Assembly: GCF_013369335.1 (NCBI RefSeq)
Contig: NZ_SZQJ01000005.1
Span: 372,001-436,000, forward strand
Length of the DNA stretch: 64,000 bases
From: Vibrio sp. JPW-9-11-11
GTDB taxonomy: Bacteria; Pseudomonadota; Gammaproteobacteria; Enterobacterales; Vibrionaceae
Direction: 5' to 3'
The notes under the pieces were generated by a model. The model did no database searches. It worked only from the letters and a program-made list of their open reading frames with translations, and had not been told where the DNA came from. Shown here piece by piece: positions 23,813-52,262 of the stretch. The position numbers and the translations under genes were made by a program. Each line of letters begins with the position of its first letter. Within the stretch, counting starts at the first letter, position 1.

Positions 23813-25885
23813 TTAGTTTTCCTTCTTGCATTCAAATATCTCCCTGACAAAGGTTTCTCCAGATTTGTGTGGTTTATTAGCAAGTGAGCTATCCGATGAG
23901 TGATGAACTAAGTTTGCATGCATAAAAGCAGACATGAGGGGGCTATCTTGAGTTTTTTCTACGTTTTCGACATTTAACACATTCAATAGCTGTCCATTTT
24001 TAGCAGCCTGCAGTGCTTTATCGCATAACTCCCCAAACGGATAGTCTCCAATAACCGAAGGCACCGAATAGTAGCTGTCACCAGTCTTTTCCCATAGCTG
24101 ACCATTATCATCATCAACTGGCACGCCCGAACTTTGCGCTAGACCGAACATCACTCTCAAGTACAAGCGCGAAAGATCGCCCTCAACGACTCGCTTCTTG
24201 TATAACTTACCCTCTAAGTAGGTTTGATCACTGTTACCGCGAGTAATGGTTTTATAGTCAACGATATAGTGTTTTTCACTCCACCCCAATGAAATTTCAT
24301 TCTCGAGGATTTGACCAAATTTTTTATCTAACGAAGCTTTGACTTTATCATAGTTCCAACGACTGACACTGCGGCGCATCCTTTTGATCGGTTTTTTCTC
24401 AAGCAGAGGCAGTTGATAACGGCTTTGGTTTTGTCCTCCGAGTGTGTCATAAGAGAGTGTGGACTGATAGCCACCACCGAGATCGGAGTGAGCTCCGGTA
24501 ACCACAAACTCCTCAAAATTGCTATGTGGGTTAATTTTGTTTAGACAGAAGTTATAGCGGTATTCCGTCTTCTTATGGGCGGTAAGGTGAACGACCTTAT
24601 CAATACGCTTTGGATCTAACCAGAGTCTTACGTCTCCGTTGTTATCATTATGAGGGGTAAAATCCCCATTCCATGGATCAAATATGGCGGCAACTGTATC
24701 AAAAAGACCAACAAATTTTATCCTACAAGAATCGTTACTTCCCCAGTCAAATCCCGATTTCAAGCCAATTGAATTAGTCTGACAAGCTTTATCAAATTCT
24801 GTGGCAAACGTTCCTTGGTCACCATCAGATACTATGTTGGCAAAATGTCTTGCAGCCGCGGCCCCTCGACTGAATCCAAAGATATCTATAATTATTTCTG
24901 CAATTCCATCCAGCTCGTTTTTCACCCATTCTTTTGAGCTTTTCAATTTCTTTAGGTTTGAACTTAGCTGATCTATCCCCGTTTCAACTTTAGCGATTAC
25001 ACCGTAGTCGCCGGTACCAAATGCTTGACCGGGAACCAGAGATTCATCCGCCGGTTTAGAGCTGTCTTTTTCATTTCCAGTGCCGATTCCAGTGATATAT
25101 TCCGGGTGCACAAAAGTATTAGTGCTAGGATCAAAGATATCATCTGGGTACAAATCATGTAGTTTCTGGATATTTGTCAGCTCATTGGAAGCACTGCCAT
25201 CAACCGCGTAGTCCTCTTCCCAGAAGAAGTGAAACTTTTCGTCATCTGGATATTCGAACATCTCATCCGGCCATTCAGTGACTGGTTTGTCTTTGTGTAC
25301 AATGTTCTTGTTACGCCACTTGGTATAATACTTATCTAGCTGCTGTTTGCCCCACTGAGCACTGTACGTATTGTTCCCTGTTCCATCAAAAAACATCCCC
25401 ACACGCAGAGTAATAAAATTGAAACCTCTTACTTTTAGTACGTAGCTCTTGTCGGCAACCAGCTTTAGCGCATCCGCTTTGCCTTTTTGGTGGCGTGTCG
25501 GCAACGTTTGGTCTTCTGTTAGATCCGTTAAATCGCCGGCCGTAACTTCAAAGAAATTGGATTTGGAACCATTGTGGCCTTGGTATTCATCCGCAAAGTC
25601 TTTGGTTGGGTTCCCTTCTTTATTGGGCTTGCGCTCATCCCCCTGAGACGCCAATAACCAAGAGTCACTTTCAAGCTTGAGGATCACCTCACCGGGACAG
25701 ATGCCTTCGAGTAAAATGGGGGCTTCACTCAACGTGACTGGATATTCGTTACAAGCACCATCAATCACGACGCCACCGACGTTTCGGAAAGGTTGATTGA
25801 ACTCATCCCTTACGACTATTTCTATCCAATGTGACTTTTTCTCGCAAGGTATGCAATAAGGGCTCGCTCCAGTGGCACTGCTCAT
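23813..25885 (-). CDS. Type VI secretion phospholipase effector, Tle1 family (DUF2235)
   Basis: 690 residues. After a ~150-residue N-terminal domain with a beta-sandwich look (HWIEIVVRDEFNQPF) comes the DUF2235 alpha/beta hydrolase: FFDGTGNN near 166, nucleophile elbow IFGFSRGAAAAR with Ser339, candidate acid Asp396 in FVGLFDTVAA, and His466 in TGAHSDLGGGY. This is the Tle1 pattern of antibacterial lipases that hydrolyse phospholipids in a rival's membranes. There is no signal peptide, as expected for delivery on VgrG. It overlaps the DUF4123 adaptor by 4 bp (ATGA) and is followed at once by a lipoprotein gene. Confidence 0.88.
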   Translation of the reverse strand: MSSATGASPYCIPCEKKSHWIEIVVRDEFNQPFRNVGGVVIDGACNEYPVTLSEAPILLEGICPGEVILKLESDSWLLASQGDERKPNKEGNPTKDFADEYQGHNGSKSNFFEVTAGDLTDLTEDQTLPTRHQKGKADALKLVADKSYVLKVRGFNFITLRVGMFFDGTGNNTYSAQWGKQQLDKYYTKWRNKNIVHKDKPVTEWPDEMFEYPDDEKFHFFWEEDYAVDGSASNELTNIQKLHDLYPDDIFDPSTNTFVHPEYITGIGTGNEKDSSKPADESLVPGQAFGTGDYGVIAKVETGIDQLSSNLKKLKSSKEWVKNELDGIAEIIIDIFGFSRGAAAARHFANIVSDGDQGTFATEFDKACQTNSIGLKSGFDWGSNDSCRIKFVGLFDTVAAIFDPWNGDFTPHNDNNGDVRLWLDPKRIDKVVHLTAHKKTEYRYNFCLNKINPHSNFEEFVVTGAHSDLGGGYQSTLSYDTLGGQNQSRYQLPLLEKKPIKRMRRSVSRWNYDKVKASLDKKFGQILENEISLGWSEKHYIVDYKTITRGNSDQTYLEGKLYKKRVVEGDLSRLYLRVMFGLAQSSGVPVDDDNGQLWEKTGDSYYSVPSVIGDYPFGELCDKALQAAKNGQLLNVLNVENVEKTQDSPLMSAFMHANLVHHSSDSSLANKPHKSGETFVREIFECKKEN

Positions 25886-26664
25886 ACACCACTCTCCTTG
25901 ATAGCTTGTAACATTTTTAACTCTTCGAAAGTCAGGTGAAATGGAATCGAGAACTCTGAAATGTGTATCCCAGTTTGTTGGGCGGCATCAACCATAACGT
26001 AATACTCTGCTTGTTGTTGGCACCCGGCATCTATGGCTTTTTGTAGAGCTCCAGAAATAAGCGCTGCCGGACTGTCCGTTTTTTCCATTAACTCGGGAAA
26101 CAGCTCCCACCACCGGCGCTCAATCGCATATGCGTGAGCGCCGAGGCTATATAGCTCAGCGAGGTGATGCGGTTGAATTTTCCACCATATATCGGTGTTA
26201 GGTTGAAACTCTGGTTTTGGTGTATTGGAAAAAACTGTCAGCGCATCATTGGTAACGGCCATTGCTGTCAGGTTGCCGAGAAAGCTAGACCTTTCTCCCT
26301 CATCCATCGCTTCAAGCATAGGAAGCACTACGTTAGGGTCATAGAAACGGAACATGACCTCTTCACCTTCTAAAGAGGCGGTCAGCAAACTGCGCAAATG
26401 CGCCAGCACTGCTTCAGTGTTCTCGCTACTGCAAAGACCAATGCCTCGTTGGAGAGTCTCTTCTTCAAGCGCTAATACTTCTTCAGAAACAGGAATAATC
26501 CATGGCGATAAATCTTTCACTTCGGAGAACAACTCTCCAACAAAGAGAGGGATAGAATCCTCAAAACCAAAACCGCGTTCTTTGACCGCGTCTGTATGAG
26601 TACTGCTGTTGGCCAACCAATAGCCATTTTCTCGCCTCTCACTTAGCCAATCCTTTATCATCAT
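25882..26664 (-). CDS. DUF4123 type VI effector adaptor/chaperone
   Basis: 260 residues from ATG 26664, overlapping the vgrG stop (TAATG); a second ATG follows immediately. The sequence resembles DUF4123 adaptors (Tap/TEC), which load a particular effector onto the tip of a particular VgrG. The family hallmark is VMFRFYDPNVVLPML in the middle, with WWELFPEL later. No signal peptide is seen. Its place between vgrG and the lipase, with overlaps on both sides, says that it loads this lipase on this VgrG. Confidence 0.87.
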   Translation of the reverse strand: MMIKDWLSERRENGYWLANSSTHTDAVKERGFGFEDSIPLFVGELFSEVKDLSPWIIPVSEEVLALEEETLQRGIGLCSSENTEAVLAHLRSLLTASLEGEEVMFRFYDPNVVLPMLEAMDEGERSSFLGNLTAMAVTNDALTVFSNTPKPEFQPNTDIWWKIQPHHLAELYSLGAHAYAIERRWWELFPELMEKTDSPAALISGALQKAIDAGCQQQAEYYVMVDAAQQTGIHISEFSIPFHLTFEELKMLQAIKESGV

Positions 26665-28715
26665 TAATCTCCAGATAGCGGACAAGGCTTGACGGCTGGC
26701 ACACTCGCCTGCTCAGCTTTTAACAATGCTTGATAACTAACGGCTTTCGATACTTTCGGCACCTCGGGCGCTTCAACATGATTGGGTAACGCAGGAGCTG
26801 TACCCGCATAACCACTTCCCGAGCCTGCACTGCCACCAGCATTTAAGTTGATAGTAGGGCCGACTAAATGTACCCCCCCACCGTCGACTTTAACGAAACT
26901 TCCTCCCGCTTTAAGGGTGATTTCTGCTCCCGCTTCAACGACCACTTTAGCGCCACTGTTTAGTGATATTTCACGTCCCGCTTGAGCCACCAATAGAGTA
27001 CCCAGTTTGTTCTCCGCGCTACCTTGCGTGATATCAGAATAAGTACCTTTGACCGATATTCGTGACTCCGCCTGGGTTATACTATGGTGGTCATTCGTTA
27101 CAGACTGGAACTGATCATTATCGATTTCAACATGCTGGTTATGCTTGATATGTTTGATCGCATCGTTGAGTACTTTGGTCTCTAAATCTTTTTGCGCGTG
27201 AATATAAACTTGCTCAATGCCTGCTTGATCTTCAAAGCTGAGTTCGTTAAATCCGCTACCTTGATGTGACTCCGTTCTAAATACCGTTTTGCTTTTGTTC
27301 TCTGGTAGCGCATAGGGCGCCACATTCGCCGCATTATACGTGCGACCAGTGATGATCGGCTGATCAGGATCCCCTTCGAGGAAGGATACAATCACTTCTT
27401 GCCCAACTCTTGGTAGCGCTAACATACCATACTGAGAGCCCGCCCAACCTTGAGAAACCCTAACCCAGCAAGAGCTCTGCTCATCACCGTTTGAATAACG
27501 GTCCCAAGGGAAATGTACCTTAACCCGGCCATGCTCATCGCAATAGATCTCTTCGGCCTCTGGGCCTACGACAATGGCAACAGAAGCCCCGTCAACCTTA
27601 GGCTTACATTGAGGTTCTGCTTGCCAAGTGACATTAGCGGGAATAAGCACCAAACGATTGTTGTAAGTGGTAGCGCCCTCTCCCCCTTCTTCTTGTAAAG
27701 CCTGAGGTTGCGTACCAGACACATACAGATTAATCACTTGCCAATGTGGTGTAGAAAAGTTTTCTAAGTCATCTTCTAGCTGAAATTTGCTTCCAACCTG
27801 CATTTGCAGATGGTTGCTTTTCGCCAATGCAGAATGGGACATACTGCGCAAGTATTCCAACCTTGCACGACTAAATTCCAAACCGATGGAGTCTTGTTTA
27901 TAGCGCCCTGGGAAATCAAAATGCTCATAGAGTTCGGTATTTTGATATTCAATGTCACTCGCCTGACTTTGCTGTAAAAAACGATACGTCGGTTTTTTAA
28001 AACTATAGTCACCCATAGTCACTCTACTGACCTGGGATTTTTTAGATTCGACTAAACTAGAAATATAATTACTATCTTCGCTGCCACCGGTAGTTGGGTT
28101 ATAGAGAACCGGTGATTCAAATGCTATTAAAGATTCGGCTGAGTCGCAGAAAACAACGGTGTGCTTGCCGCTCTCATGCAAGAAGTAGTAACTGATCCCC
28201 TCTTCAGCAAGTAAACGATGGATAAACTCTAGGTCGGTTTCACGGTACTGAACACAATACTCTCTGGCCACATAGTGGTGCTTTAAAGAAAATGCGTACT
28301 CAGACATCCCCATTTCTTGAAGAAGAATTGAAACGATCTCGGGAACAGTCTGCAACTGGAAGATACGACTATTATGGCGCAATGAAAGACGTTCTAGCTC
28401 GGGTACTATAACAACGGAGTAAAACGTATGATGATGCCCCGTATCACCTTTAACGAACTGACGAGCGATGCCATGAACCACGCGTTGCAGCACACTGTTT
28501 TTATACAGTTCAAGCTGCACTTTTTTATCGACGATATCATCTTGATGTAGGTTATTTCTTCTACTCGCTAGGTCAATATGGTATCGATAGCCAGTGCATT
28601 CAGCCTCTAACGCTAACTGAGATGAAGAGATCGACTCAGTACCAGAAAACTGCCGGACCACGAGGGAGTCATCGTCTAACCCATCAATTTTTATCTGGTA
28701 ATGCAGTGTTGCCAT
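26664..28715 (-). CDS. vgrG: Type VI secretion spike protein VgrG
   Basis: 683 residues from ATG 28715 (AGGAAG upstream); the open frame extends 15 codons further without support. The N-terminal ~400 residues are the gp27/gp5-like spike base (LHYQIKIDGLDDDSLVVRQF, REYCVQYRETDLEFIHRLLAEEGISYYF). The gp5 OB-fold follows with EIYCDEHGRVKVHFPWDR and CWVRVSQGWAGSQYGM. The C-terminus is a DUF2345-type beta needle (GREISLNSGAKVVVEAGAEI) and ends in a short proline-rich tail with no enzymatic domain. No hcp or structural type VI genes are nearby, so this is an orphan cluster using a machine encoded elsewhere. Confidence 0.95.
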   Translation of the reverse strand: MATLHYQIKIDGLDDDSLVVRQFSGTESISSSQLALEAECTGYRYHIDLASRRNNLHQDDIVDKKVQLELYKNSVLQRVVHGIARQFVKGDTGHHHTFYSVVIVPELERLSLRHNSRIFQLQTVPEIVSILLQEMGMSEYAFSLKHHYVAREYCVQYRETDLEFIHRLLAEEGISYYFLHESGKHTVVFCDSAESLIAFESPVLYNPTTGGSEDSNYISSLVESKKSQVSRVTMGDYSFKKPTYRFLQQSQASDIEYQNTELYEHFDFPGRYKQDSIGLEFSRARLEYLRSMSHSALAKSNHLQMQVGSKFQLEDDLENFSTPHWQVINLYVSGTQPQALQEEGGEGATTYNNRLVLIPANVTWQAEPQCKPKVDGASVAIVVGPEAEEIYCDEHGRVKVHFPWDRYSNGDEQSSCWVRVSQGWAGSQYGMLALPRVGQEVIVSFLEGDPDQPIITGRTYNAANVAPYALPENKSKTVFRTESHQGSGFNELSFEDQAGIEQVYIHAQKDLETKVLNDAIKHIKHNQHVEIDNDQFQSVTNDHHSITQAESRISVKGTYSDITQGSAENKLGTLLVAQAGREISLNSGAKVVVEAGAEITLKAGGSFVKVDGGGVHLVGPTINLNAGGSAGSGSGYAGTAPALPNHVEAPEVPKVSKAVSYQALLKAEQASVPAVKPCPLSGD

Positions 28716-28980
28716 AATGCTTCCTATACTTGCTATTCGCATGTGAGACGATTCAATCAATTACGCGACACTGCAAAGATAGCGCCAACCGAAAGATGGC
28801 TTTAAGTCTTGATATTTGGTGAATATGAACGAACCGCCAAGCAAGCTTTTGCCTATGCTTAGGCAGTATTTTACTCACGGGCAAAAAAACTCGAGTTGCC
28901 TCTTGGGAAAGCATTTCTGATTCAAGCATAAACATTTGATAATTAGATGATGTTAAAACACGCGATCACTTGATTTAAAG

Positions 28981-29478: not shown

Positions 29479-29517
29479 GAAACCCCGATGCTACCAACAT
29501 CGGGGTTTCACCGTTTT
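29479..29517 (+). terminator. rplY terminator, invaded by the island's left repeat
   Basis: GAAACCCCGATG (29479-29490) pairs perfectly with CATCGGGGTTTC (29498-29509), followed by ACCGTTTTT. The island's left direct repeat begins at 29491, in the loop, so the right half of this terminator is duplicated at the island's other end. Confidence 0.88.
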
Positions 29518-29624
29518 TGAGCCCTCAAAAACGCTCTCAATTCTCTTCAACTTACTGAAAATTAGCCACTTTACCCTAACCCACAGTAACCACATTATTT
29601 TTGGGTGGATTAAGTGTGGACGAA
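29491..29624. repeat. Left attachment repeat (attL-like) of the island
   Basis: This 134-bp segment matches 44756-44889 with no gaps. The first 30 bases are identical, then a block of 38 identical bases after two mismatches, and the remainder is diverged (about 90% overall). It starts in the loop of the rplY terminator. The crossover is most likely in the identical first 70 bases. Confidence 0.8.
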
Positions 29625-30499: not shown

Positions 30500-31669
30500 T
30501 TACATTCGTCGGTTAATAATCAACTCAATATCACTGATCAACTTACTACATTTATTAATAAAATCTTTATTCATGGATTGAGTGCAATCATTGAACTTAA
30601 TTAAAGATATCAAGTAAGAACGATAACCTATTAGTTTGTTATTTATCTGTGACTTGGAGTACTCATCTTTAAATGAGTCCTTGGGGTTAAATCTAAACTT
30701 CAACTTTTCAACATCAACATTGAATACTGCTTTAAGAATCTCCCGATCACTTTTGTCAGTACTACACTCGTATATTAGTTTAGATACAACTTTCGTCTTC
30801 TTGTTTGAAACCCTCAACTCACCTATTATATAAGGATAGTTTGAACCTTCTATAAAGTAACCATTAATGGATATATAACCAGACTTTTTAATGGTTTTCC
30901 TTCTATTTATTTTATAGCCATCAATATTAATTATAAATGATAACTGCTCAATAAATCTCTGGGAGTGAACGAATGGTTTTTTGTCTTTGATACCTAGAAC
31001 TCCATCAAACGGAGTCTTTTCTCGATATTTACCATCCCTCATCGTTGAGCTAGAAAACAACATATCATCAGCATATCTAGTGTATGTAATATTATGTTCA
31101 GAACAGAACTTTTCAATTAAGATATCTAGCTTTCTAAATACAATATTAGAGATCAAAGGTGACGTCTTAAAACCGATCGGCAAAATTGAACGTCCAACAA
31201 AATCAGTATTTTTTGCTGACTTAGGTAAAGTGTAGGTGACAAGGCTTGTAACCAAATCTAAATGACTCTGACTACAGGTTTCACTAATGTTTGATGTTGA
31301 AACATGTTCCTTTAGAGACTCTCTAACGATTTTGTCACTAATAAAGTGGAAGAAGTTTTTTAGATCAACTCTCAAATAGTGGTAGTGGTTTCTATGTGGC
31401 TCAAGAAAGTTAAGGTATGTTTTGTTTTTAACATAAGCTGTAGCAGATTGATTTACAGGAATTCTACTAAAGAGACTTCTATTTAAAGCCTCATGGATAT
31501 GATTAATCTTATCGCCTTCTGATCCAGTGATACTGTAAATAAACTTATTTTTAACTTTTGTTTCATGCACACAGCTTAAAGGGAGCGACTTAACGCCACT
31601 CCCTTCATTGAAAAACATACACTCCTTGACCAAGGATAGAATAGAACTACTAACAGTGTAATTTTTCAT
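30500..31669 (-). CDS. Retron-like reverse transcriptase
   Basis: 389 residues, AT-rich codons. Motif A is LRVDLKNFFHF (Asp102); the catalytic YADD is at 199-202 in TRYADDMLFSSS; LPIGFKTSPLISN matches the LPQG.P.SP..SN motif. Retron marks are present but altered: the NAxxH site reads FLEPH (His92 kept) and VTG reads ING (268-270). The closest architecture I know is the Eco8-type retron, where a retron RT pairs with an OLD-family ATPase-nuclease; that is exactly the upstream neighbour, in the same orientation and 137 bp away. It would reverse transcribe a short structured RNA into msDNA, whose disturbance by phage frees the effector. A different defence RT class cannot be excluded because of the altered motifs. 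Confidence 0.85.
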   Translation of the reverse strand: MKNYTVSSSILSLVKECMFFNEGSGVKSLPLSCVHETKVKNKFIYSITGSEGDKINHIHEALNRSLFSRIPVNQSATAYVKNKTYLNFLEPHRNHYHYLRVDLKNFFHFISDKIVRESLKEHVSTSNISETCSQSHLDLVTSLVTYTLPKSAKNTDFVGRSILPIGFKTSPLISNIVFRKLDILIEKFCSEHNITYTRYADDMLFSSSTMRDGKYREKTPFDGVLGIKDKKPFVHSQRFIEQLSFIINIDGYKINRRKTIKKSGYISINGYFIEGSNYPYIIGELRVSNKKTKVVSKLIYECSTDKSDREILKAVFNVDVEKLKFRFNPKDSFKDEYSKSQINNKLIGYRSYLISLIKFNDCTQSMNKDFINKCSKLISDIELIINRRM

Positions 31670-31806
31670 ACAGATTCCACATAGATACTAATTCATCTTT
31701 TCACGAACTTGTCGTGCAGTAAAAGTACATCACAACCTGGATGCGCGGGATTAGACAATGTTGAGACTGGGATACATAAAGCATCTGCTTTGCGAACAAA
31801 GCCTCT
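31670..31806 (-). ncRNA. Candidate retron msr/msd RNA between OLD and RT genes
   Basis: This 137-bp gap directly upstream of the RT start is where a retron's msr-msd often lies. On the minus strand it contains GCTTTG-TTCG-CAAAGC, a stem closed by a UUCG tetraloop of the kind found in msr regions. It also has a longer bulged hairpin, CTTTT...CACGA-CAAGT-TCGTG-AAAAG. I could not find the terminal a1/a2 inverted repeats, and the gap is short, so part of the RNA could lie in the end of the OLD gene or elsewhere. Confidence 0.35.
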
Positions 31807-34044
31807 CTATACTATCGATGAAGAAATCTTCCTAAGTATATCACTTAAATAGGGAAAATTTCGAGTGAAATTTACATGGAAATCATCGTGATCTTTAGAC
31901 TCTATCTCAATGCTGTTTATCGCATAGTCTAAAAATGATGTCACCCAACCTCCGGTTTTTCCAAGTTGAAATTGAAGTTTCCTAAGACAATTTTCCTTAA
32001 TATTAGCAACGGCACTTTGTACATCATCACAAATGTAGCTCTCATAAAACTTAGACTTTTGACTACATAACGTATGAGTTTTACCATCAAGAGCTAACCT
32101 TAAAACAGTCACTTGGTCTTTTCGACTTAGTGCGTTACTTTTGCAGTAAAACTGTTTGAGCAATCCCATAAGGTTTAGGACCAATATTTTCCTAACAAAT
32201 GCTTTGTTAACCTCCGATAACTCTCCGCTATATGGTGATTTAGTGAACACTCTAGAATAGATGAACTCAACATTGCTTTTAGTTAAGTTCCCTCTGAGGC
32301 TATCTAGCTTTTTATTAATATCACCACCACCACCTATCATCAAAACTCCATCAGCTAATTTCTTGGTTTCTTCAATTAGCCACCTTAACGCAAGCTTCCG
32401 TGAAGTTTCGCATAGAAGCACTTCTTCGATTGTTGATGGAGCAATATGAACTCTATCTGTTTTTGTAAGTACTTCATTACACATAGAAATAAAGTAGAGG
32501 TATTTGAATTTTTCAAATCCCGTACCAAGGGAATTAGTTGAGATTTTATTACCATAAATAGTAAGAATAGATTTCAAATTTTTCTTTAAAGAGTAATTGT
32601 CAGATATAAAACAAGTGTATTTAAAACGCTCAGCCAAGCCAATCAAATTAACTTCTTTTTGTTTTAATATAAATTTCTTATCGTCAAAGTCATATGAGAC
32701 CATTTTGTCCGCATCGTAGATGTTCAGGTATGGTATTGGAGCTTTTGAAGCTCTCGGGTTTAGGGAGCGTAAAATAACCTCATTTGTTTTATATATATCA
32801 ACATTGATCAGGAAGTCAAAATATTCCATTAACCTCATATTGCCGAACAATTCAAGCTCTGTCTCTCCTTCAACAAATAGTATAAAATCACTAAAGTAGA
32901 GCCTCGCCTCGTTATCACTAAATACATTAAGAAAACGCTTATCTTTAAACCTCGTATTTAATAAAGATACAGTTGTCCTCCTAGATTTTATTCCAAAATG
33001 AAAAATACTATGTTCCCCTTCGGATTCAAAACTTTTGATAACTGATTTTAATATATTAGGTGAATGTGTGGTCATCAATACTGTTGGAAAAGGTGTGGCA
33101 TATTTTCCTAAAGATTTTTTTTCTGTTCGCTTCTTTAAACTATCATATAGGTTATATAAGTTATATATTAATTTTTCATTCAGCTTGGGGTGCAACCCTA
33201 GCTCAGGCTCATCAATATATACTATTGGTGTAATAAACTCGCGTCGAGTTAGGGTTATAATTAGAGAAAGAAAAAGCTCTATGAACTTATGTGAATTAGT
33301 TCCATCAGATTGCGTAGTCAACTCAAAACCATCAATATTGAATTTGTGACCGCTGAGCCCTACTTTTATGTAATTTAAAATCAAGTCTTGATAGCTATAA
33401 GGAGAAGCTTTAGTTAAGTCACCTATTATCTTCACATATTCTTTGTAGGAGTTACTATTGCTTGACACTTTCTTATCAAAAAAGTCTACGATTTGCTCAG
33501 TTTTTAAAGCTTTTGTATTAAGAAATTTAAGTTGACTAGTTGTTTTCCAAAGCCCATCCCAGTCATATAAGTCAATTTTCCTAACATCTATAAAGAAAAA
33601 TGGGTATATTCTATTTATTATCTTCCTGACACTTGCATCCTTATCTGACCAACTAATTGAACCGTTATTTTTTATAGTAAGAGTTAAGGAGAAATTTTTT
33701 CTTATCTTTCTTTTGGAAACAAGGTTGAAGTTATCATCTTTAAATAGAGAACTATAGATATGCTTTTGATAAATACTTTTATTTTTCCTCGACTTAATAA
33801 CCTCTTCTAAACGAGTCGTGTCATAAGTTAAGGTAATAGTGCCTATACTAGAGTAGTTAGAATTTAAAGGTAAAGGTACAACCGACTCTTCTTTAAGGTT
33901 TGCATAAAAATATCGTAGAACCTTAAGAAAGTTTGACTTACCAACATTGTTTTTTCCTATAATGCAATTAAAATCACTAAAGTCGGTAATCGTGCAGTCA
34001 TCAAATGACAGTATGTTTTTTATTCTAACGGATTTTAAAGCCAT
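31807..34044 (-). CDS. OLD-family ATPase-TOPRIM nuclease, probable retron effector
   Basis: 745 residues. An SMC/ABC-like ATPase comes first: MALKSVRIKNILSFDD, Walker A GKNNVGKSN (about 30-38), and Walker B with D-loop YIDEPELGLHP, then TTHSP. A TOPRIM domain follows, with FILFVEGETELELFG and the acidic YLNIYDADKM. The C-terminal ~250 residues are helical and unassigned. The ATPase-TOPRIM build is that of OLD nucleases, and this one resembles the Eco8 retron effector. It should cleave DNA or otherwise stop growth when released from RT/msDNA control during phage infection. It lies upstream of the RT gene in the same direction. Codon use is strikingly AT-rich compared with backbone genes, a sign of recent transfer. 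Confidence 0.85.
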   Translation of the reverse strand: MALKSVRIKNILSFDDCTITDFSDFNCIIGKNNVGKSNFLKVLRYFYANLKEESVVPLPLNSNYSSIGTITLTYDTTRLEEVIKSRKNKSIYQKHIYSSLFKDDNFNLVSKRKIRKNFSLTLTIKNNGSISWSDKDASVRKIINRIYPFFFIDVRKIDLYDWDGLWKTTSQLKFLNTKALKTEQIVDFFDKKVSSNSNSYKEYVKIIGDLTKASPYSYQDLILNYIKVGLSGHKFNIDGFELTTQSDGTNSHKFIELFLSLIITLTRREFITPIVYIDEPELGLHPKLNEKLIYNLYNLYDSLKKRTEKKSLGKYATPFPTVLMTTHSPNILKSVIKSFESEGEHSIFHFGIKSRRTTVSLLNTRFKDKRFLNVFSDNEARLYFSDFILFVEGETELELFGNMRLMEYFDFLINVDIYKTNEVILRSLNPRASKAPIPYLNIYDADKMVSYDFDDKKFILKQKEVNLIGLAERFKYTCFISDNYSLKKNLKSILTIYGNKISTNSLGTGFEKFKYLYFISMCNEVLTKTDRVHIAPSTIEEVLLCETSRKLALRWLIEETKKLADGVLMIGGGGDINKKLDSLRGNLTKSNVEFIYSRVFTKSPYSGELSEVNKAFVRKILVLNLMGLLKQFYCKSNALSRKDQVTVLRLALDGKTHTLCSQKSKFYESYICDDVQSAVANIKENCLRKLQFQLGKTGGWVTSFLDYAINSIEIESKDHDDFHVNFTRNFPYLSDILRKISSSIV

Positions 34045-39240: not shown

Positions 39241-39636
39241 TTAATTTCGATTTAACCTAACACCGTCATAGGGTCCCGTGTTTTTGGTCCCTAACGTTTG
39301 CTTCCAGCGGTATTCTGCTTTGAGAGCCAAACTTTCACTGGTAAACTCAAGAACAGTAAATACCAAGTTGTTATACCCATGCTCCAACACATACAGGTTA
39401 AGATGTTTTGCATCACCATTGCTATTGAGGTGTTTTAGCCACCGGCTCAAGATCCCTCCACAGTTGTATGCAGAACCAACATAGCGAGAAGTGCCATCAG
39501 TTGACCGCTGTAGGTAGACTCCAGCTTGAGACAATACCTTTTTAAGTTCGTTGTCTGGCGACTCATCTTCAGAAATCGCAATGATCTCTTTCCAGGTAAA
39601 CTCCATCCCCAAAATCTCGGTATCTGAAGTGTTCAC
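39241..39636 (-). CDS. GIY-YIG nuclease domain protein
   Basis: 131 residues; the GIY-YIG domain fills residues 37-131. GVY (39-41) and YVG (52-54) are the paired strands, the catalytic arginine is in LSRWLKHL, the metal-binding glutamate in AEYRWKQTLGT, and the closing asparagine is at the C-terminus (VRLNRN). All key residues are therefore present. It overlaps the upstream gene by 4 bp (ATGA), so the two are translated together. Substrate unknown; a homing, repair or defence role are all possible. Confidence 0.85.
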   Translation of the reverse strand: MNTSDTEILGMEFTWKEIIAISEDESPDNELKKVLSQAGVYLQRSTDGTSRYVGSAYNCGGILSRWLKHLNSNGDAKHLNLYVLEHGYNNLVFTVLEFTSESLALKAEYRWKQTLGTKNTGPYDGVRLNRN

Positions 39637-39980
39637 ATCGGCAAAGCCAGACCTTCATACGCACTATTACGCGTGTAGATTTTGTTTTGGCTCGCGATCT
39701 CTTTAGTTGTATCGCTTGAAAATAGGGCGTAAAAATATTGGAAAATCGCTTCTCCATCGCCCTCTAAATCTGAATAGTGTTTCGCGCTTCTTTTATGGAA
39801 AGGATAAGACTCGAGCTCCGCTTTGATTGCTGCAGGAACATCACCATGATAGATCCGAAAAAAGCTCCCTTTGGTGTTTTCCCATAACTCAAAAGCTCGG
39901 AGTCTAAACGCATTTTGCTTTAAGCGAATGGCCGAATAACTGCGCTCTAGGTAATCTTGCTCAACACGAATGTCAAACAA
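39633..39980 (-). CDS. Unknown protein coupled to the GIY-YIG nuclease
   Basis: 115 residues from TTG 39980 (no ATG available; a stop lies 14 codons upstream). Charged, alpha/beta look, with RLRAFELWENTKGSFFRIYHGDVPAA and KHYSDLEGDGEAIFQYFYAL. No family recognised. It ends in a 4-bp overlap with the GIY-YIG gene. It might be a partner or specificity subunit of that nuclease, or the two could be halves of a gene that is single in relatives. Confidence 0.6.
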   Translation of the reverse strand: MFDIRVEQDYLERSYSAIRLKQNAFRLRAFELWENTKGSFFRIYHGDVPAAIKAELESYPFHKRSAKHYSDLEGDGEAIFQYFYALFSSDTTKEIASQNKIYTRNSAYEGLALPM

Positions 39981-40628
39981 TCCCGCTAGCCCACTTTCTT
40001 CGTATAGTTTTTTAGGGATTCAGCACACACTGATTTGCCTCTAAAGATAAATGAAGGTGCGGATTATATAGCAGCAATACACCAAATGTAACGCATCGTT
40101 TATTACCTCTAATCAAGCCGAAAGCAACCACTCTCTCAGAGTCATTATTGATATCACCCAATATCATTCGTTTCTGCACATCGAAGCCAACCCATCGCCT
40201 CCCCTAACCCACACTAAGAGTAATTCGTAAGTATGTATTCCGTACTCAACGACGCTTGAGCACCGCCGTGCCCACGCCAGTACTATCTATACGAAGAACA
40301 CACCCAAGACCACCCAGACACCTCTCTCAAGAAAGACAACAACGACAACTATTACCTAAAATAAAAGCAGCCAAGTGAAACATATGAAGCTTCTGAAAAA
40401 GTGTCACAAACGTACTGCTATGTAAGTTCTAGCCCCTAACCTTAATGAGCTTACTTTAAACTAATTTAGTAAAGAGCACGAACTCCAAGTACCAAGGGGC
40501 AGTATAAGCAAGCCAGAGTAGCTGGCCAATTTTGGTTCTACGGTCGAATAATCCAACTACAAGTTAGATAAGCTGTTATAACTATTCTCACTTAATACAC
40601 CTTGTTGCTACGACATAACACTAAAACC
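39981..40628. other. Noncoding stretch between nuclease pair and tandem array
   Basis: About 650 bp with no convincing coding frame on either strand and no clear RNA gene. It must contain the promoter of the nuclease pair. Composition is uneven, with C/A-rich runs around 40200-40350. Confidence 0.5.
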
Positions 40629-40866
40629 GTTCTAACTTAGAACGCCCAACCACTCAGACATACCGCCCAAAACCGTTCTAACTTAGAACACCCTGCAGCT
40701 CAGACATACCGCCAAAACCGTTCTAACGTAGAACACCCTGCTCCCAGACATACCGCCAAAACCGTTCTAACTTAGAACACCCTGTTACTAAAACATGCCT
40801 CCAAAACAGTTCTAATTCAGAACAATCTGCTGCTCGACATACCTCTAAATAGCTCTAACTAAAAAT
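40629..40866. repeat. Tandem array of ~45-bp units built on a 15-bp palindrome
   Basis: Five copies of GTTCTAACTTAGAAC or close variants start at 40629, 40675, 40720, 40764 and 40809 (spacing 46, 45, 44, 45), with a degenerate sixth at 40852. Between palindromes a shared spacer reads ACCCTGC..CAGACATACCGCC. The array ends about 15 bp from the stop of a tyrosine recombinase gene. Regular spacing near four helical turns suggests cooperative protein binding on one DNA face. Confidence 0.85.
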
Positions 40867-40880
40867 GACTCAGCCATTAT

Positions 40881-41744
40881 TCAACGCCCTAGATAAACTA
40901 CTGTCACTTCCTCTCGGCCATGCCCTAGCTCTTCGCTTATGATCATTCTGGCTTCATAGTCACGCTGCTTGTCTGCACCACTCAACCCTTTCGTTGACGG
41001 GCCTCCCGCAGCAGGAGCGCTATTACCCGTCAACTCAAGGTATCGCTGGTGCGCATACGCATGTCTTAGGCCATGTGCACGCTCTAGCCCCATCTTGATA
41101 CACGCTCGTTCATATCTACCTAAATGAGTTTTATACGTGTCCTCTTTCGGTATTAATGAACCATCCCCCACCCACTTTTTTATCGAGTCGATGAGTTCAC
41201 GCTGTGCTTGGGTTCTGATTGGTACGGTTCGAGGCCTAGCGCCTTTCGTTTTAGTCAGGACTAAGTGATCACCTTTATCCGAAAAGCGCAGTATTATCTT
41301 CATGCACTCTTCTCGGCGAAGACCAAAGGCGGCCTGTAATCTGAAACTCGCTTCTAAATAGCGGTTATTGAGCCTTGATAACTGCTCATTTGATATATGG
41401 CGGGACCGATTGATGTTTGTAACGTAATGGCGCTTTTCAATACCTAGAGATGCATTGTTAGCGGGTATAAGCCCAGGCTTACCAATTTTTTCTGATAGCC
41501 ATCTTAGGTGAGACATTCGGTTTTTTATTGTACCAGCCGATAAGCCTTGCGATTGCCAATGAGTCAATAGCTTTACTGCGTGTCGACGGCCAAAGTTCTT
41601 TAGCTCTAAGTTTCGTACATTCAGCTCTTTCAGTTGACTGTCCACCAGCTTGAGCACTTTCTTTCTCTCTGCTTGAGTGGCTTTCGAGCCATCTGGGTTT
41701 CGGTGTAGTAAACGGGTAATTTGGAAATAGAAATTAGTAGCCAT
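40881..41744 (-). CDS. Tyrosine recombinase (integrase-domain protein) beside the tandem array
   Basis: 287 residues. The N-terminal ~110 are a SAM-like core-binding domain (LLTHWQSQGLSAGTIKNRMSHLRWL). The catalytic domain has Arg in AAFGLRREECM, the HxxR motif in AHGLRHAYAHQ, and the closing EELGHGREEVTVVYLG with the nucleophile tyrosine four residues from the end. It resembles the integrase-domain proteins found in several vibrio islands. No excisionase is adjacent. The end of a related gene, lacking the tyrosine, lies at 52112-52262 and is again followed by the same palindromes. Confidence 0.85.
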   Translation of the reverse strand: MATNFYFQITRLLHRNPDGSKATQAERKKVLKLVDSQLKELNVRNLELKNFGRRHAVKLLTHWQSQGLSAGTIKNRMSHLRWLSEKIGKPGLIPANNASLGIEKRHYVTNINRSRHISNEQLSRLNNRYLEASFRLQAAFGLRREECMKIILRFSDKGDHLVLTKTKGARPRTVPIRTQAQRELIDSIKKWVGDGSLIPKEDTYKTHLGRYERACIKMGLERAHGLRHAYAHQRYLELTGNSAPAAGGPSTKGLSGADKQRDYEARMIISEELGHGREEVTVVYLGR

Positions 41745-42424
41745 GCGCTAACCCTCTTCTTGTTCAATGAAAAATAAAGAGCCGTATGGTGTCGGCTCTT
41801 TCTCTTGTCATTCGAAGGTTCTTATTTCACGGGTGCAGTAGTTAGGTATCAATGCGATTTCAGATTAGTGTTGTTACTCCCGTTCATTTCGACAGAACGC
41901 CTATCGCTTGGTTGAAGCAATTAGGTAATGGAGTGAGACTACTGTGCGGTCAGAAATTCCGAACAATTGAATGACTGTAAGCCATGTGCAATTGCTTAAT
42001 CCCCAGAAGCCCGTAGGGCTGATGAGATAAGAATGCGCTGGTAATTAATTGGTTTCTTTTACAAGTAGGCTATGCAGCAATGACTGCGTATTTAATTCCA
42101 TTTCATTGTGTACGATGAGTGCCGAGCATTCAAATTTGGTGACGCTCTCAGCGCCAGTTTGGGTTCGGCGTCATTCGCTGATAATTCTGAGAATCGGCTC
42201 GGAAGGTAGTAATGGCGGGCGCTGTCCGTCCTGTCACTCCTTGTTTGGAGTGACAGGACTCGAGTAGCTTGACTTACTTCTACCTTGTTTCCCCAAAAAG
42301 TGAGTTAGATAGAAATCAAATATCCACTGTATTCTTTAAGATGTAGGTGCGCATCGAGCAAATTTTTGCCCCGACCATTTTTCTGATATGGTGCTAGACC
42401 TTCAGTTTTATTATCAGAAAATCA
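41745..42424. other. Noncoding stretch with an 11-bp hairpin
   Basis: About 680 bp. CCTGTCACTCC (42230-42240) pairs perfectly with GGAGTGACAGG (42247-42257), with no T-run. A 40-codon frame from ATG 41852 to 41974 exists but has no ribosome site. Otherwise I see no gene; the recombinase promoter must lie at the left side. Confidence 0.5.
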
Positions 42425-42907
42425 ATGCTCTACGACGTCTTTTCCAATAACGAGTTCAACCGAAGGCTAAAGAGAAAGCGTTGGCTAAAAGTTATGATTA
42501 GTTGGCCTCTTATGGTTTATATGGTTTGGTTGAGTTATAGCTCAATTAATGAGTTATTCAGCATTAACAGTTTAATCGGCACAATTCCTAAAGTAAGAAT
42601 TGCAGGATTATTGAATAATGTAGCTTCTTTTGTCGGCTTTATAATATTTGGGTTTATAACGATCGTACCCTTAGTCATGCTTCACCCATCAATGGAGCTA
42701 TTACTAAAAGCACCATTTTCGACAAAAACAGGTCTATACACTGTAGCGATCGTCGTAATCAGCTCTGTGGTTTCTGCTGTATGGCTGGATAACAACATTA
42801 GAAAAAAAATAGATCAATACAGCTATATCGAATGTACATCTCAGAGAGAACTCACATTAAAATACTCAAGTCGCACATACGTTTTAGACCACAGCCTGTG
42901 TGATTGA
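42425..42907 (+). CDS. Small integral membrane protein, perhaps DUF1240-like
   Basis: 160 residues with three or four membrane segments (about 22-42, 65-88, 100-125). A basic N-terminus (NRRLKRKRWLK) precedes the first. The soluble C-terminal tail carries YSYIECTSQRELTLKYSSRTYVL and a final cysteine, a pattern that recalls DUF1240 proteins of proteobacterial islands. No function is known. It stands alone between two recombinase genes. Confidence 0.65.
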   Translation: MLYDVFSNNEFNRRLKRKRWLKVMISWPLMVYMVWLSYSSINELFSINSLIGTIPKVRIAGLLNNVASFVGFIIFGFITIVPLVMLHPSMELLLKAPFSTKTGLYTVAIVVISSVVSAVWLDNNIRKKIDQYSYIECTSQRELTLKYSSRTYVLDHSLCD

Positions 42908-42990: not shown

Positions 42991-44247
42991 CTAACCAACC
43001 TTTGGCTTAACCTCAATCGCTGGAACCTGATTCCAGCGAATATCATTTTCTCTCGTGTAAATCTTAGTTGTATCCGCGTTGGCATGAGCCATTCGCTCAG
43101 TTGCGCTTATGCCCTGCTCTTCAATCATTCTTGCAGATAATCCTCGGATCTCATGATAGGTTGGCCGAAGGGCTTTCTTAAGGTGATCGTATAGGCCCAA
43201 AGAGTCTCTTACTTTGCTGAACTCTTTACTGATATTGTGGTGATGGACCTGATAAAGATGGTCAGTTTCCTTAGAGATACCTCTTTGTAATTGGCGAGGT
43301 TTTCTATGCACCACATACGGACAGTGCAACCTTGAGGTTTTGGACAGGTCGACAATGTCTTTTATCGCCTGAGTAACTGGAATTGCTACCGCAGAAGTCT
43401 CCGACTTTTGGACTTTCTGGCGGTGAATATAAAGCGTTCCATAGATGGGTTGGCCGTCAATGTAACCCACCCTACCCTCTGGGTTCCACAGAATACCGCA
43501 TACGCCTTCTCTTGGCTTCTTGATTCGATAACGCAATCGGTAGATTTCTCGCACAGCATGAGTTGTCTCTAAGGTTAAAGACATCGCGACTTTCAAGAAC
43601 AGTGGTGCTGCTTCGTAAATCTGAAGATAGCTTTCATAATCTAAGTTGTGACGCGCTTTGGTGTAATCCTCTTTCGATAAGCGTCGCTGTTTCTTGTTAA
43701 GAACAAAGTTACTCTCTATCGCACTCTCGTCAGCCAAATAGGAAAATATCTTTTTCAGATTGCTGATTTTTCCATTTAGCTGTCGATTATTAAGTTCTGC
43801 ATAGTATTTACCAATGTGTTCATTGATATGCTGTAACTTCAACGATTTTGTTAAGCACTTACCCATGTGCTCTTCCAGCCTTTCACAGTCACGTTCTAAG
43901 TTTCGAAAAACGTCTTTTGAGAGTTTTTCTTCGGCTTTGACACGGGCCAACACGACAGGAAGCCAATCTTTTAATGGCTTATTAAACTTATCTCTACGCC
44001 CTTTTGATATAGCTCTTTGAAATTGGCTTGGCTCATTAAGATCGAAGTCTTGCGTCAATTCCGGCCTGTTCTGCATGTTATAAACATACGCCGCTTGAAT
44101 CGCCTCTTGCTCAGTGGTGCCACTAGGGAAAAGTCGTTTAACACCTTCAACAGTTGTAAAGCGAAAACGAAGCTCTCCCCTGTGGCTCATTCGCACAAGA
44201 AATGCTGGGTAGTGAGCCGTTTCTTTACTTCTTGCTCGACCTACCAT
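42991..44247 (-). CDS. int: Phage-type tyrosine integrase of the island
   Basis: 418 residues from the ATG at 44247, which overlaps the excisionase stop (GTGATG; GTG at 44250 is the alternative). N-terminal arm-binding and core-binding regions (to about residue 190) precede the catalytic domain: Arg in TTHAVREIYRLRY, HxxR in YHEIRGLSARM, then MAHANADTTKIYTRE with the nucleophile tyrosine. Placed 500 bp from the right repeat and coupled to an excisionase, it is the enzyme expected to integrate and excise the 29491-44889 island at the rplY terminator. Confidence 0.92.
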   Translation of the reverse strand: MVGRARSKETAHYPAFLVRMSHRGELRFRFTTVEGVKRLFPSGTTEQEAIQAAYVYNMQNRPELTQDFDLNEPSQFQRAISKGRRDKFNKPLKDWLPVVLARVKAEEKLSKDVFRNLERDCERLEEHMGKCLTKSLKLQHINEHIGKYYAELNNRQLNGKISNLKKIFSYLADESAIESNFVLNKKQRRLSKEDYTKARHNLDYESYLQIYEAAPLFLKVAMSLTLETTHAVREIYRLRYRIKKPREGVCGILWNPEGRVGYIDGQPIYGTLYIHRQKVQKSETSAVAIPVTQAIKDIVDLSKTSRLHCPYVVHRKPRQLQRGISKETDHLYQVHHHNISKEFSKVRDSLGLYDHLKKALRPTYHEIRGLSARMIEEQGISATERMAHANADTTKIYTRENDIRWNQVPAIEVKPKVG

Positions 44248-44456
44248 CACGACTCCAGAAATCTGACTAATTCTGAAATTCGATCGGCTGGGTTGCCTAT
44301 ATCTTCATCTATACAGACAAGGTATCGGCCTGTGGGGGTTCGAGTGCCGCCCAGCTTGCCAATTTTTATCCAATTAATGATCGTGGCGCTGCACATACCA
44401 GATCCAGGATAAAACTCCTCAATGTACTGACTCGGTCTTAAGTATCGGATTGCCAT
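44247..44456 (-). CDS. Excisionase-like small DNA-binding protein
   Basis: 69 residues from ATG 44456 with GAGGAG 8 bp upstream; a longer frame upstream lacks support. MAIRYLRPSQYIEEFYPG followed by SATIINWIKIGKLGGTRT is a winged MerR/excisionase-type helix-turn-helix with a basic wing. It overlaps the integrase start by one base. Such proteins bend attachment-site DNA and turn the integrase from insertion to excision. Confidence 0.82.
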   Translation of the reverse strand: MAIRYLRPSQYIEEFYPGSGMCSATIINWIKIGKLGGTRTPTGRYLVCIDEDIGNPADRISELVRFLES

Positions 44457-44503
44457 GTTCTTCTCCTCACATTTCAAATAATGAAAATTGCTTAAGAAAA
44501 ACT

Positions 44504-44755: not shown

Positions 44756-44889
44756 CTACCAACATCGGGGTTTCACCGTTTTTGAAGCCTCAAAAACGCT
44801 CTCAATTCTCTTCAACTTACTGAAACTTCGCCACTTTAGCCAACTCCACAATAACCACATCACTTTTTGGTGGAATAAGTGTGGACGAA
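44756..44889. repeat. Right attachment repeat (attR-like) of the island
   Basis: A gapless partner of 29491-29624. It starts with the right arm of the rplY terminator hairpin but has no matching left arm upstream, showing that this copy is the secondary one produced with the insertion. 44890-45082 beyond it shows no gene. Confidence 0.8.
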
Positions 44890-52017: not shown

Positions 52018-52076
52018 GTTCTGACTTTGAACACTCTGCTCCTTCGAAAGTGACACAAAGTGTTCTAACCTAAAAC
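52018..52076. repeat. Degenerate pair of the GTTCTAACTTAGAAC palindrome
   Basis: GTTCTGACTTTGAAC (52018-52032) and GTTCTAACCTAAAAC (52062-52076) are 44 bp apart, matching the unit length of the 40.6-kb array. The spacer after the first reads ACTCTGCT, close to ACCCTGC there. They lie just beyond the end of a recombinase remnant, the same arrangement. Confidence 0.75.
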
Positions 52077-52111
52077 ACGTTTAAGATCGGCCGTTGGGAT
52101 CTAGCTGTTAC

Positions 52112-52262
52112 TTCAATGCCCAAACAAACCGCAGTCACTTCCATGCCCTAGCTCTTCGCTAATGACCGTTCTGGCTTCATAGCCACGTTGCTTGCCTGCA
52201 ACACTCAACCCTTTTTGAGGAGCCTCCCGCAGCAGGAGCGCTATTACCCATCAACTCAAGGT
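52112..52262 (-). pseudogene. 3' remnant of a tyrosine recombinase like the 40.9-kb gene
   Basis: On the minus strand this segment matches the last ~50 codons of the intact recombinase at DNA level: LELMGNSAPAAGG, then a frameshift, then YEART.ISEELGHG. A small deletion removes the segment before the nucleophile tyrosine, and the 5' part of the gene is absent beyond 52262. It is a relic of a second insertion. Confidence 0.8.

Follow-up and report, generated by a model that had tools for sequence, protein, structure and literature searches.

The window analysed here, a 64,000-nucleotide stretch of the genome of Vibrio sp. JPW-9-11-11, contains a 15.3 kb island bounded by a 134-bp direct repeat, the two copies of which are 90% identical. 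The features of the locus are listed in Table 1. The island encodes Rec287 and a second tyrosine recombinase, Int419, and resembles integrative mobilizable elements in that an integrase gene (Int419) lies beside one of the two flanking direct repeats. As Int419 is located at the island end, and near the same repeat in relatives, Rec287 is not the only recombinase-like protein of the island and probably not its integrase, for which Int419 is likely the better candidate. In genus relatives, Rec287 and Int419 occur near the same repeat together with different cargo. Both ends of such an island were also seen in genomes G318 and G025, and with shorter matches in G018. The retron cargo genes of the window were assigned with PADLOC (RT_I-B, E 9e-110; ATPase-Toprim_I-B, E 1.7e-212). 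Pfam scanning of eleven island ORFs revealed no replication gene (Rep family), and no sgaCD or tra genes were found among these ORFs.

Two further genes of the window were noted. A GIY-YIG gene (PADLOC UzuA-like, 39241-39980) seems to be split over two frames. The stretch 23813-28760 encodes a Tle1-like phospholipase domain (PF09994), and the cluster, with a neighbouring gene judged from its sequence, looks like a type VI secretion effector locus.

Table 1 Features of the Rec287 locus and its surroundings in the window.
Feature	Position	Strand	Remarks
Island end beside rplY (PF01386)	29491-29624		Direct repeat, 90% identical to 44756-44889
Retron type I-B cargo genes	30500-34044	-	Reverse transcriptase 30500-31669, ATPase-Toprim 31807-34044
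Tandem array, seven units, core GTTCTAAGTTAGAAC (gene strand)	40584-40866	-	Read as expanded terminator-like 3′ hairpins
Array units	40584-40598 (degenerate), 40629-40643, 40675-40689, 40720-40734, 40764-40778, 40809-40823, 40852-40866 (degenerate)	+	
Rec287, 287 aa, tyrosine-recombinase-fold protein (PF12834+PF12835)	40881-41744	-	Homolog of the SGI1 relaxase MpsA
Conserved non-coding DNA of Vibrionaceae homologs	41745-42227	-	Candidate small RNA/leader, relaxosome sites
Terminator-like hairpin with T-tract	41774-41803	-	-59 to -30 from the Rec287 start codon
Hairpin GTCCTGTCACTCC/GGAGTGACAGGAC	42228-42259	-	Candidate oriT core
Int419, tyrosine recombinase	42991-44250	-	Adjoins the second island end
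76-aa protein adjoining Int419	44247-44477	-	Candidate excisionase, from position and size only
Other island end	44756-44889		Direct repeat
Decayed second copy of the Rec287 3′ end, two palindromes	52018-52260	-	Outside the island

The repeat array and the hairpins behind Rec287

Since Rec287 is encoded on the minus strand, the array sits 3′ of the gene, starting 14 bp past its stop codon. Three of the seven units are perfect palindromes, two have one unpaired position and the two outermost are degenerate, with 3, 7, 7, 6, 7, 6 and 3 of 7 positions paired in coordinate order. The units are spaced by 45, 46, 45, 44, 45 and 43 bp, and TRF delineated a repeat at 40612-40843 with a period of 45, 5.2 copies and a score of 287. 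The initial annotation correctly reported five clear copies and a degenerate one; a further degenerate copy is present at the far end. A search with GTTCTAACTTAGAAC, allowing up to 3 mismatches on both strands, yielded 14 matches in the window versus 2.1 ± 1.7 in 100 shuffles (maximum 6). Elsewhere in the genome, isolated matches with 1-2 mismatches are about as frequent as for a reversed control pattern (20 and 18 matches in all, respectively, array included). Within the window, the repeat is confined to the array and the remnant at 52 kb, hence neither the island ends nor the DNA upstream of Rec287 contain it. The units do not keep a helical phase; their spacing varies and does not correspond to a whole number of helical turns. 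The whole array folds better than shuffled sequences (z of -3.4 as RNA and -5.6 as DNA), as expected of tandem palindromes.

A pattern search of 329 family genomes for two units in tandem identified two, the window's own genome and G012, both with the units behind Rec287. Looser matching gave seven units in the window, four in V. pacinii, two each in G012, G318 and the 52-kb remnant, and one in G033, leaving out two 6-mismatch matches that were out of register. TRF, run around 40 Rec287 loci, detected a 45-bp array in just two genomes, that of the window and V. pacinii; among the genomes searched, the tandem form was found only in one lineage, judging from sequence comparison. The association of array and recombinase gene noted in the initial annotation holds: every tandem copy found lies directly behind Rec287 or a remnant of it (twice in the window, and in V. 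pacinii, G012 and G318; G033 has one unit there). Searches of plasmid records returned no match to the array itself and four records that matched parts of the gene. V. pacinii is without ~0.9 kb present in the window around the split GIY-YIG gene, the difference beginning right behind the last palindrome unit.

Relatives whose Rec287 is 87-98% identical carry one to four units, and those at 72-75% identity carry different hairpins at the same place behind the gene. The 3′ hairpin is TTCGGATTCC...GGAATCCGAA in G018, G300 and G136, AAGGCTTTCGAA...TTCGAAAGCCTT in G025, and of a third kind in G003 (58% identity). A strong hairpin, defined as z of -2.6 or lower over the first 70 nt past the stop codon, is present in 8 of 13 Vibrionaceae loci and comprises four unrelated sequences; the corresponding z is 0.0 in the window, no better than chance, and -1.3 in V. 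pacinii. None was found in 22 loci from outside the Vibrionaceae (z between -1.8 and 1.4, 70 nt). The array does not seem to fit a site that is conserved along with the Rec287 protein. In three loci that have no array (L079, L080 and L097), a shared motif near TTGCTCGTGATGTGACACTT / TGCTTGTGATGCGACACTT / TGCTTGTGATGCGAACAC was observed behind the gene.

In G012, G318 and G033 the gene is followed by a 12-13-bp stem and then a T-run, so that the 3′ hairpin of these one- or two-copy relatives probably terminates the transcript of the relaxase gene. The window has lost the outer stem of the hairpin, and the core is repeated. Counting against a terminator, only one of the seven window units passes a simple terminator scan, which found 8 sites in 5.9 kb compared with 5.0 ± 2.4 in shuffles, the window folds at chance level past the stop codon, and the loci outside the Vibrionaceae have no strong hairpin. 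On balance, we favour by a little the reading that the array is the 3′-terminal, terminator-like hairpin of a relaxase gene, tandemly amplified in one lineage. As such, the array is a lineage-specific repeat of modest interest, and the protein family and its upstream hairpin are the more interesting part of the locus.

The 52-kb remnant, which does not figure in the initial annotation, resembles the G012 version (84% over 270 bp) and is read as what may be left of an older element. Other fragments of the Rec287 3′ end were observed at L077:3559-3873, L078:15303-15601 and L084:85-381, with early sequence changes common to three species, and perhaps stem from one old insertion or duplication. 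In G136 and G018, such fragments lie ~5 and 12 kb from the full gene. An insertion at the Rec287 3′ end, considered for the fragments in G018, G136 and G148, was rejected because the window remnant breaks elsewhere and the fragments have diverged.

Rec287 and its homologs

Rec287 contains the domains PF12834 (residues 13-89, E 1.7e-13) and PF12835 (E 3.4e-8). It matches the C-terminal half of MpsA (36% over 177 aa, E 4e-16), which itself matches PF12835 (E 4e-11), and MpsA appears from sequence searches to be the nearest characterised relative among those found. MpsA is the presumed tyrosine-recombinase-like relaxase of SGI1 (PMC9299015). The MpsA copy used is a 321-aa ORF on contig L098, which is taken to be SGI1; it is followed by a 99-aa ORF of the size of MpsB and has R162, H247, R250, H251 and Y319 at the positions published for MpsA (PMC6414798). 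Rec287 has matches with E of 1e-3 or lower in 37 of 196 genus genomes. Among the weaker of these, all 18 loci fetched (L028-L045) have an ORF that matches MpsA better than Rec287.

In a 36-protein tree, the 17 rows of the Rec287 family (support 80/92) and the 12 of the MpsA family (99/98) are neighbours and together make up a group of 29 (92/84), from which seven other tyrosine recombinases encoded in the window's genome are separate; several of these seven are long branches, and the tree is accordingly taken as supporting evidence only. The AlphaFold2 model of Rec287 has a mean pLDDT of 87.7 and ends with the helix that carries the tyrosine. Fold comparison matched it to the recombinase family, for example to 2a3v (an integron integrase), lambda Int, P2 Int and XerH, which are tied at Z of 13-14, and the matches to integron, lambda, P2, XerH, Tn1549 and Cre enzymes lie within ~2 Z units of each other. 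Searching PDB sequences with Rec287, and with its alignment, returned no recombinase chain. The label of tyrosine recombinase given in the initial annotation is borne out as to the fold, whereas in its grouping the protein sides with the relaxase MpsA and not with the seven other tyrosine recombinases compared.

All 13 aligned homologs share the residues R143, K167, H224, R227, H275 and Y284; the alignment is without L052 and L064, in which the matched stretch read through stops, and without L048, L049, L057, L061 and L062. The C-terminus of Rec287 is three residues past Tyr284. The polypeptide ends 2-7 residues past the tyrosine in 35 Rec287 homologs and 2 residues past it in MpsA, whereas the seven other tyrosine recombinases extend at least 18 residues beyond the tyrosine that we take to be catalytic. 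The short tail is not universal: L105 has 15 residues past the tyrosine, and the annotated genes of L106 and L107 run beyond the match. A missing tail suits an enzyme that does not need to build a recombination tetramer. Having retained both the catalytic residues and a core-binding domain, Rec287 could still recombine DNA. Nonetheless, its sequence relationships lead us to predict, with reasonable confidence, that Rec287 is a relaxase.

Plasmid records that match Rec287 at any distance number 180, and in 156 of them the match covers at least 80% of the query. MOB-suite types 116 of the 180 as non-mobilizable. According to the annotations, 8 of 20 plasmid loci (L070, L072, L099, L101, L104, L107, L108 and L109) have a gene for a coupling protein (T4CP) no more than ~1.6 kb downstream of the homolog. 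Other relaxases are present on three homolog plasmids (MOBQ in L105 and L106, MOBF in L110), which counts against Rec287 as the relaxase. Two of the fetched homologs reside on resistance-gene plasmids, pCCK13698 and pSBP2_mcr4; in the latter (L110), a Rec287 homolog and hairpin are located behind mcr-4.3.

The upstream hairpin and the conserved non-coding DNA

The hairpin upstream of Rec287, GTCCTGTCACTCC-AAACAA-GGAGTGACAGGAC, is located ~0.5 kb from the gene. In 26 of 40 loci, a hairpin with GTCAC...GTGAC arms precedes the gene by 305-925 bp; the same search of the 1 kb on the downstream side gave 0 of 40. When the threshold was fixed and circular ends were left unjoined, 25 of 40 loci had the hairpin upstream, and not one of 385 further 1-kb tiles from these loci contained it. 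The 40 loci were chosen by the author and comprise 6 of the 13 Vibrionaceae loci and, a few near-duplicates apart, all of the rest; some are close relatives. Hosts of the hairpin include chromosomes and plasmids (pSIO1, pACIN00156_2 and those of Shewanella, Psychrobacter, Agrobacterium, Sinorhizobium and others). The GTCACT hairpin is missing from 14 of the 40 loci. Two of these, L068 and L109, have less than 450 bp of upstream sequence and were counted as misses; the 12 with enough upstream sequence are six from Pasteurellaceae (L060, L061, L069, L071, L073 and L103) and six others (L050, L054, L065, L099, L100 and L102). A different hairpin, AATCAAACA...TGTTTGATT, precedes the gene by 45-97 bp in three of the Pasteurellaceae loci (L061, L069 and L073).

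Covariation was analysed in 25 of the 26 hairpins, leaving out L067, which is nearly identical to L066. Six inner pairs (GTCACT/AGTGAC) never vary, and 11 other pairs vary on both sides. The covariation score is 0.573 versus 0.147 for shuffled sequences, with 0 of 500 as high, and 0.08-0.13 when slid; the hairpins had been picked by complementarity, which favours the score. The conserved hexamers are 7-19 nt apart, a variation easier to reconcile with a folded strand than with a duplex core site.

Between the hairpin and the gene, the DNA of 13 Vibrionaceae sequences has a mean column identity of 70%; it finishes with the terminator-like hairpin, which stops 30 bp ahead of the start codon. In G025, one upstream stretch is 86% identical over 255 bp compared with 70% for that stretch and the gene together. 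When relatives are compared in pairs, homology upstream of the gene sets in at the hairpin base (-514 to -519) in 19 of 28 cases. RNAalifold predicted 79 pairs in the upstream region, 20 of them with compensatory changes, although covariation contributes little to the energy (-2.36 of -74.9 kcal/mol). A profile of the conserved upstream DNA matched plasmid homologs weakly (L051, E 0.012; L067, E 0.079; L068, E 0.66), and an Rfam search of 40300-42500 gave no match up to E 5. The upstream hairpin seems to be the actual control site of the locus and would be older than the array. The array, its restriction to one lineage, the island ends, the homology to MpsA and the covarying upstream hairpin are read directly from sequence; a role of this hairpin as oriT, relaxase activity of Rec287, termination by the 3′ hairpins and mobilization of the island are inferred from them.

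Mode of action, alternatives and comparison with known systems

Taken as a whole, an amplified 3′ hairpin of a relaxase gene on a mobilizable rplY island with an upstream oriT is an explanation that we consider to have even chances. Rec287 would belong to an integrative mobilizable island at rplY and would most likely nick it at an oriT upstream of its own gene, formed by the hairpin and the conserved non-coding DNA behind it. The excised island would be moved by a helper conjugation system, with Int419, and perhaps the 76-aa protein, mediating excision and integration. The 3′ hairpins would terminate the Rec287 transcript; in the window the outer stem may have been lost and the core multiplied by tandem duplication.

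The initial annotation considered the palindromes to be iteron-like binding sites, perhaps the recombinase's own array or a site of replication or maintenance. That the array binds Rec287 or another island protein, in an iteron-like or regulatory capacity with copy number tuning the binding, is unlikely in our view. The palindromic cores, a spacing held within 43-46 bp and the location of all tandem copies found behind Rec287 would fit such sites, as would the units common with V. pacinii, in which the cores differ at ~5 of 60 positions and the spacers at ~14 of 88. However, the spacing does not follow whole helical turns, close relatives (87-98%) have anything from one to four units and distant ones other hairpins or no clear one, and copies are missing at the island ends and upstream of Rec287. 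The sequence comparisons support neither an iteron-like nor a recombinase-binding nor a maintenance role: relatives with Rec287 carry one or two units, an unrelated hairpin or none that is clear, the two-unit pattern occurs in 2 of 329 family genomes, and the eleven island ORFs scanned with Pfam included no replication gene. Still less probable are integron-like junctions for cargo capture, with Rec287 joining new DNA at its own 3′ hairpin. Homology between relatives does often stop at the gene end or just past the 3′ hairpin (at +41 in G018-G300 and +45 in G018-G136, and by eye in G012 versus G033 and G012 versus the 52-kb remnant), cargo varies among genomes and, in structure, the best match is 2a3v, an integron integrase, though on a par with other recombinases. 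Yet the end of a transcription unit is a natural breakpoint, G012 and G318 have common DNA further on, the hairpin sequences are not conserved, no matching palindromes were found elsewhere in the window, and the 22 loci from outside the Vibrionaceae are without a strong 3′ hairpin.

It is doubtful, though conceivable, that Rec287 is an ordinary site-specific recombinase, for example for plasmid multimer resolution, with the upstream hairpin as its core site and the array as a neutral expansion. The catalytic residues invariant in all 13 homologs, the recombinase fold of the model and the many homologs on plasmids (180 records) agree with this, as do the 13-bp arms and 6-bp gap of the window hairpin. 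Recombinase core sites generally need a fixed spacer, whereas the conserved hexamers are separated by 7 to 19 nt depending on the locus. Also against it are the early stop of most homologs past the tyrosine, the T4CP neighbours in 8 of 20 plasmid loci and MpsA as the nearest characterised relative found.

If Rec287 is a relaxase as predicted, proteins with PF12834 and PF12835 may constitute a broad unnamed relaxase clade, sister to MpsA and found on plasmids and islands of Gamma- and Alphaproteobacteria. Its oriT would be a GTCACT/AGTGAC hairpin ~0.5 kb upstream of the gene with freely covarying outer arms. In Vibrionaceae it would be combined with a structured leader RNA closed by a terminator, much as with the sgm-sRNA of SGI1; we regard this proposal, all parts together, as evenly balanced. 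Were it true, many plasmids typed as non-mobilizable would be mobilizable. Resistance plasmids with such homologs, if these are relaxases, have an unrecognised route of spread, and the hairpin is a simple sequence marker for it. On its own the array is of little consequence; what counts is the neighbouring gene, which hints at a transfer system seemingly missed by mobility typing.

Tyrosine-recombinase-like relaxases as a kind are already known (TcpM, MobK and MpsA). In the literature covered, as titles and abstract openings with most subscription papers outside the scope, nothing was found on PF12834/PF12835 proteins as relaxases or on the hairpin. In the part consulted, a report on a Shewanella plasmid calls a PF12834/PF12835 member a phage integrase (PMC9769806), and the table of a recent review gives only TcpM for MOBM (PMC12857230). 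Strand-biased circularizing elements of Vibrio (PMC9345347) were also considered for comparison.

The regularly spaced palindromes near a gene for a DNA-acting protein are reminiscent of iterons and integron attC arrays. Unlike these, the palindromes here are spaced by 45 bp, are not conserved with the gene and have no copies elsewhere in the island, in which no Rep gene was seen. Intrinsic terminators are matched by the hairpin and T-run behind the gene in G012, G318 and G033; the window and V. pacinii differ from them in having several units in tandem, with shorter stems. MpsA, MobK and TcpM are described as tyrosine-recombinase-like relaxases and are said to lack the core-binding domain (PMC8152469, PMC9299015). 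In MobK of pIGRK and TcpM of pCW3 (MOBM), the oriT lies upstream of the gene (PMC8152469, PMC9299015, PMC12857230). Rec287 is likened to MobK and TcpM by description, and differs in the core-binding domain described as absent from them. It shares with this relaxase class sequence homology to a characterised member, MpsA; because it contains the core-binding domain PF12834, it was not filed as a strict member.

The closest likeness is to SGI1, in which oriT, sgm-sRNA and mpsA follow one another in this order and a 650-700-base RNA may terminate close to an inverted repeat ahead of mpsA (PMC9299015). The dusA islands keep three oriT stem-loops despite sequence change (PMC8409611). Rec287 and MpsA have a homologous catalytic domain (PF12835) and the same C-terminal ending, both genes are preceded by structured non-coding DNA with a hairpin near the gene start, and both reside on integrative islands with their own integrase. 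They differ in the N-terminal PF12834 domain of Rec287, with a separate MpsB not seen here, in the hairpin sequence (neither GTCACT nor AGTGAC occurs in the 3.1-kb SGI1 contig) in the location of the island, at rplY here and at trmE for SGI1, and in that sgaCD and tra genes were not found among the eleven ORFs scanned here. Nonetheless, by analogy, the layout of the Rec287 locus appears to be the same as the oriT - sRNA - mpsA arrangement of SGI1.
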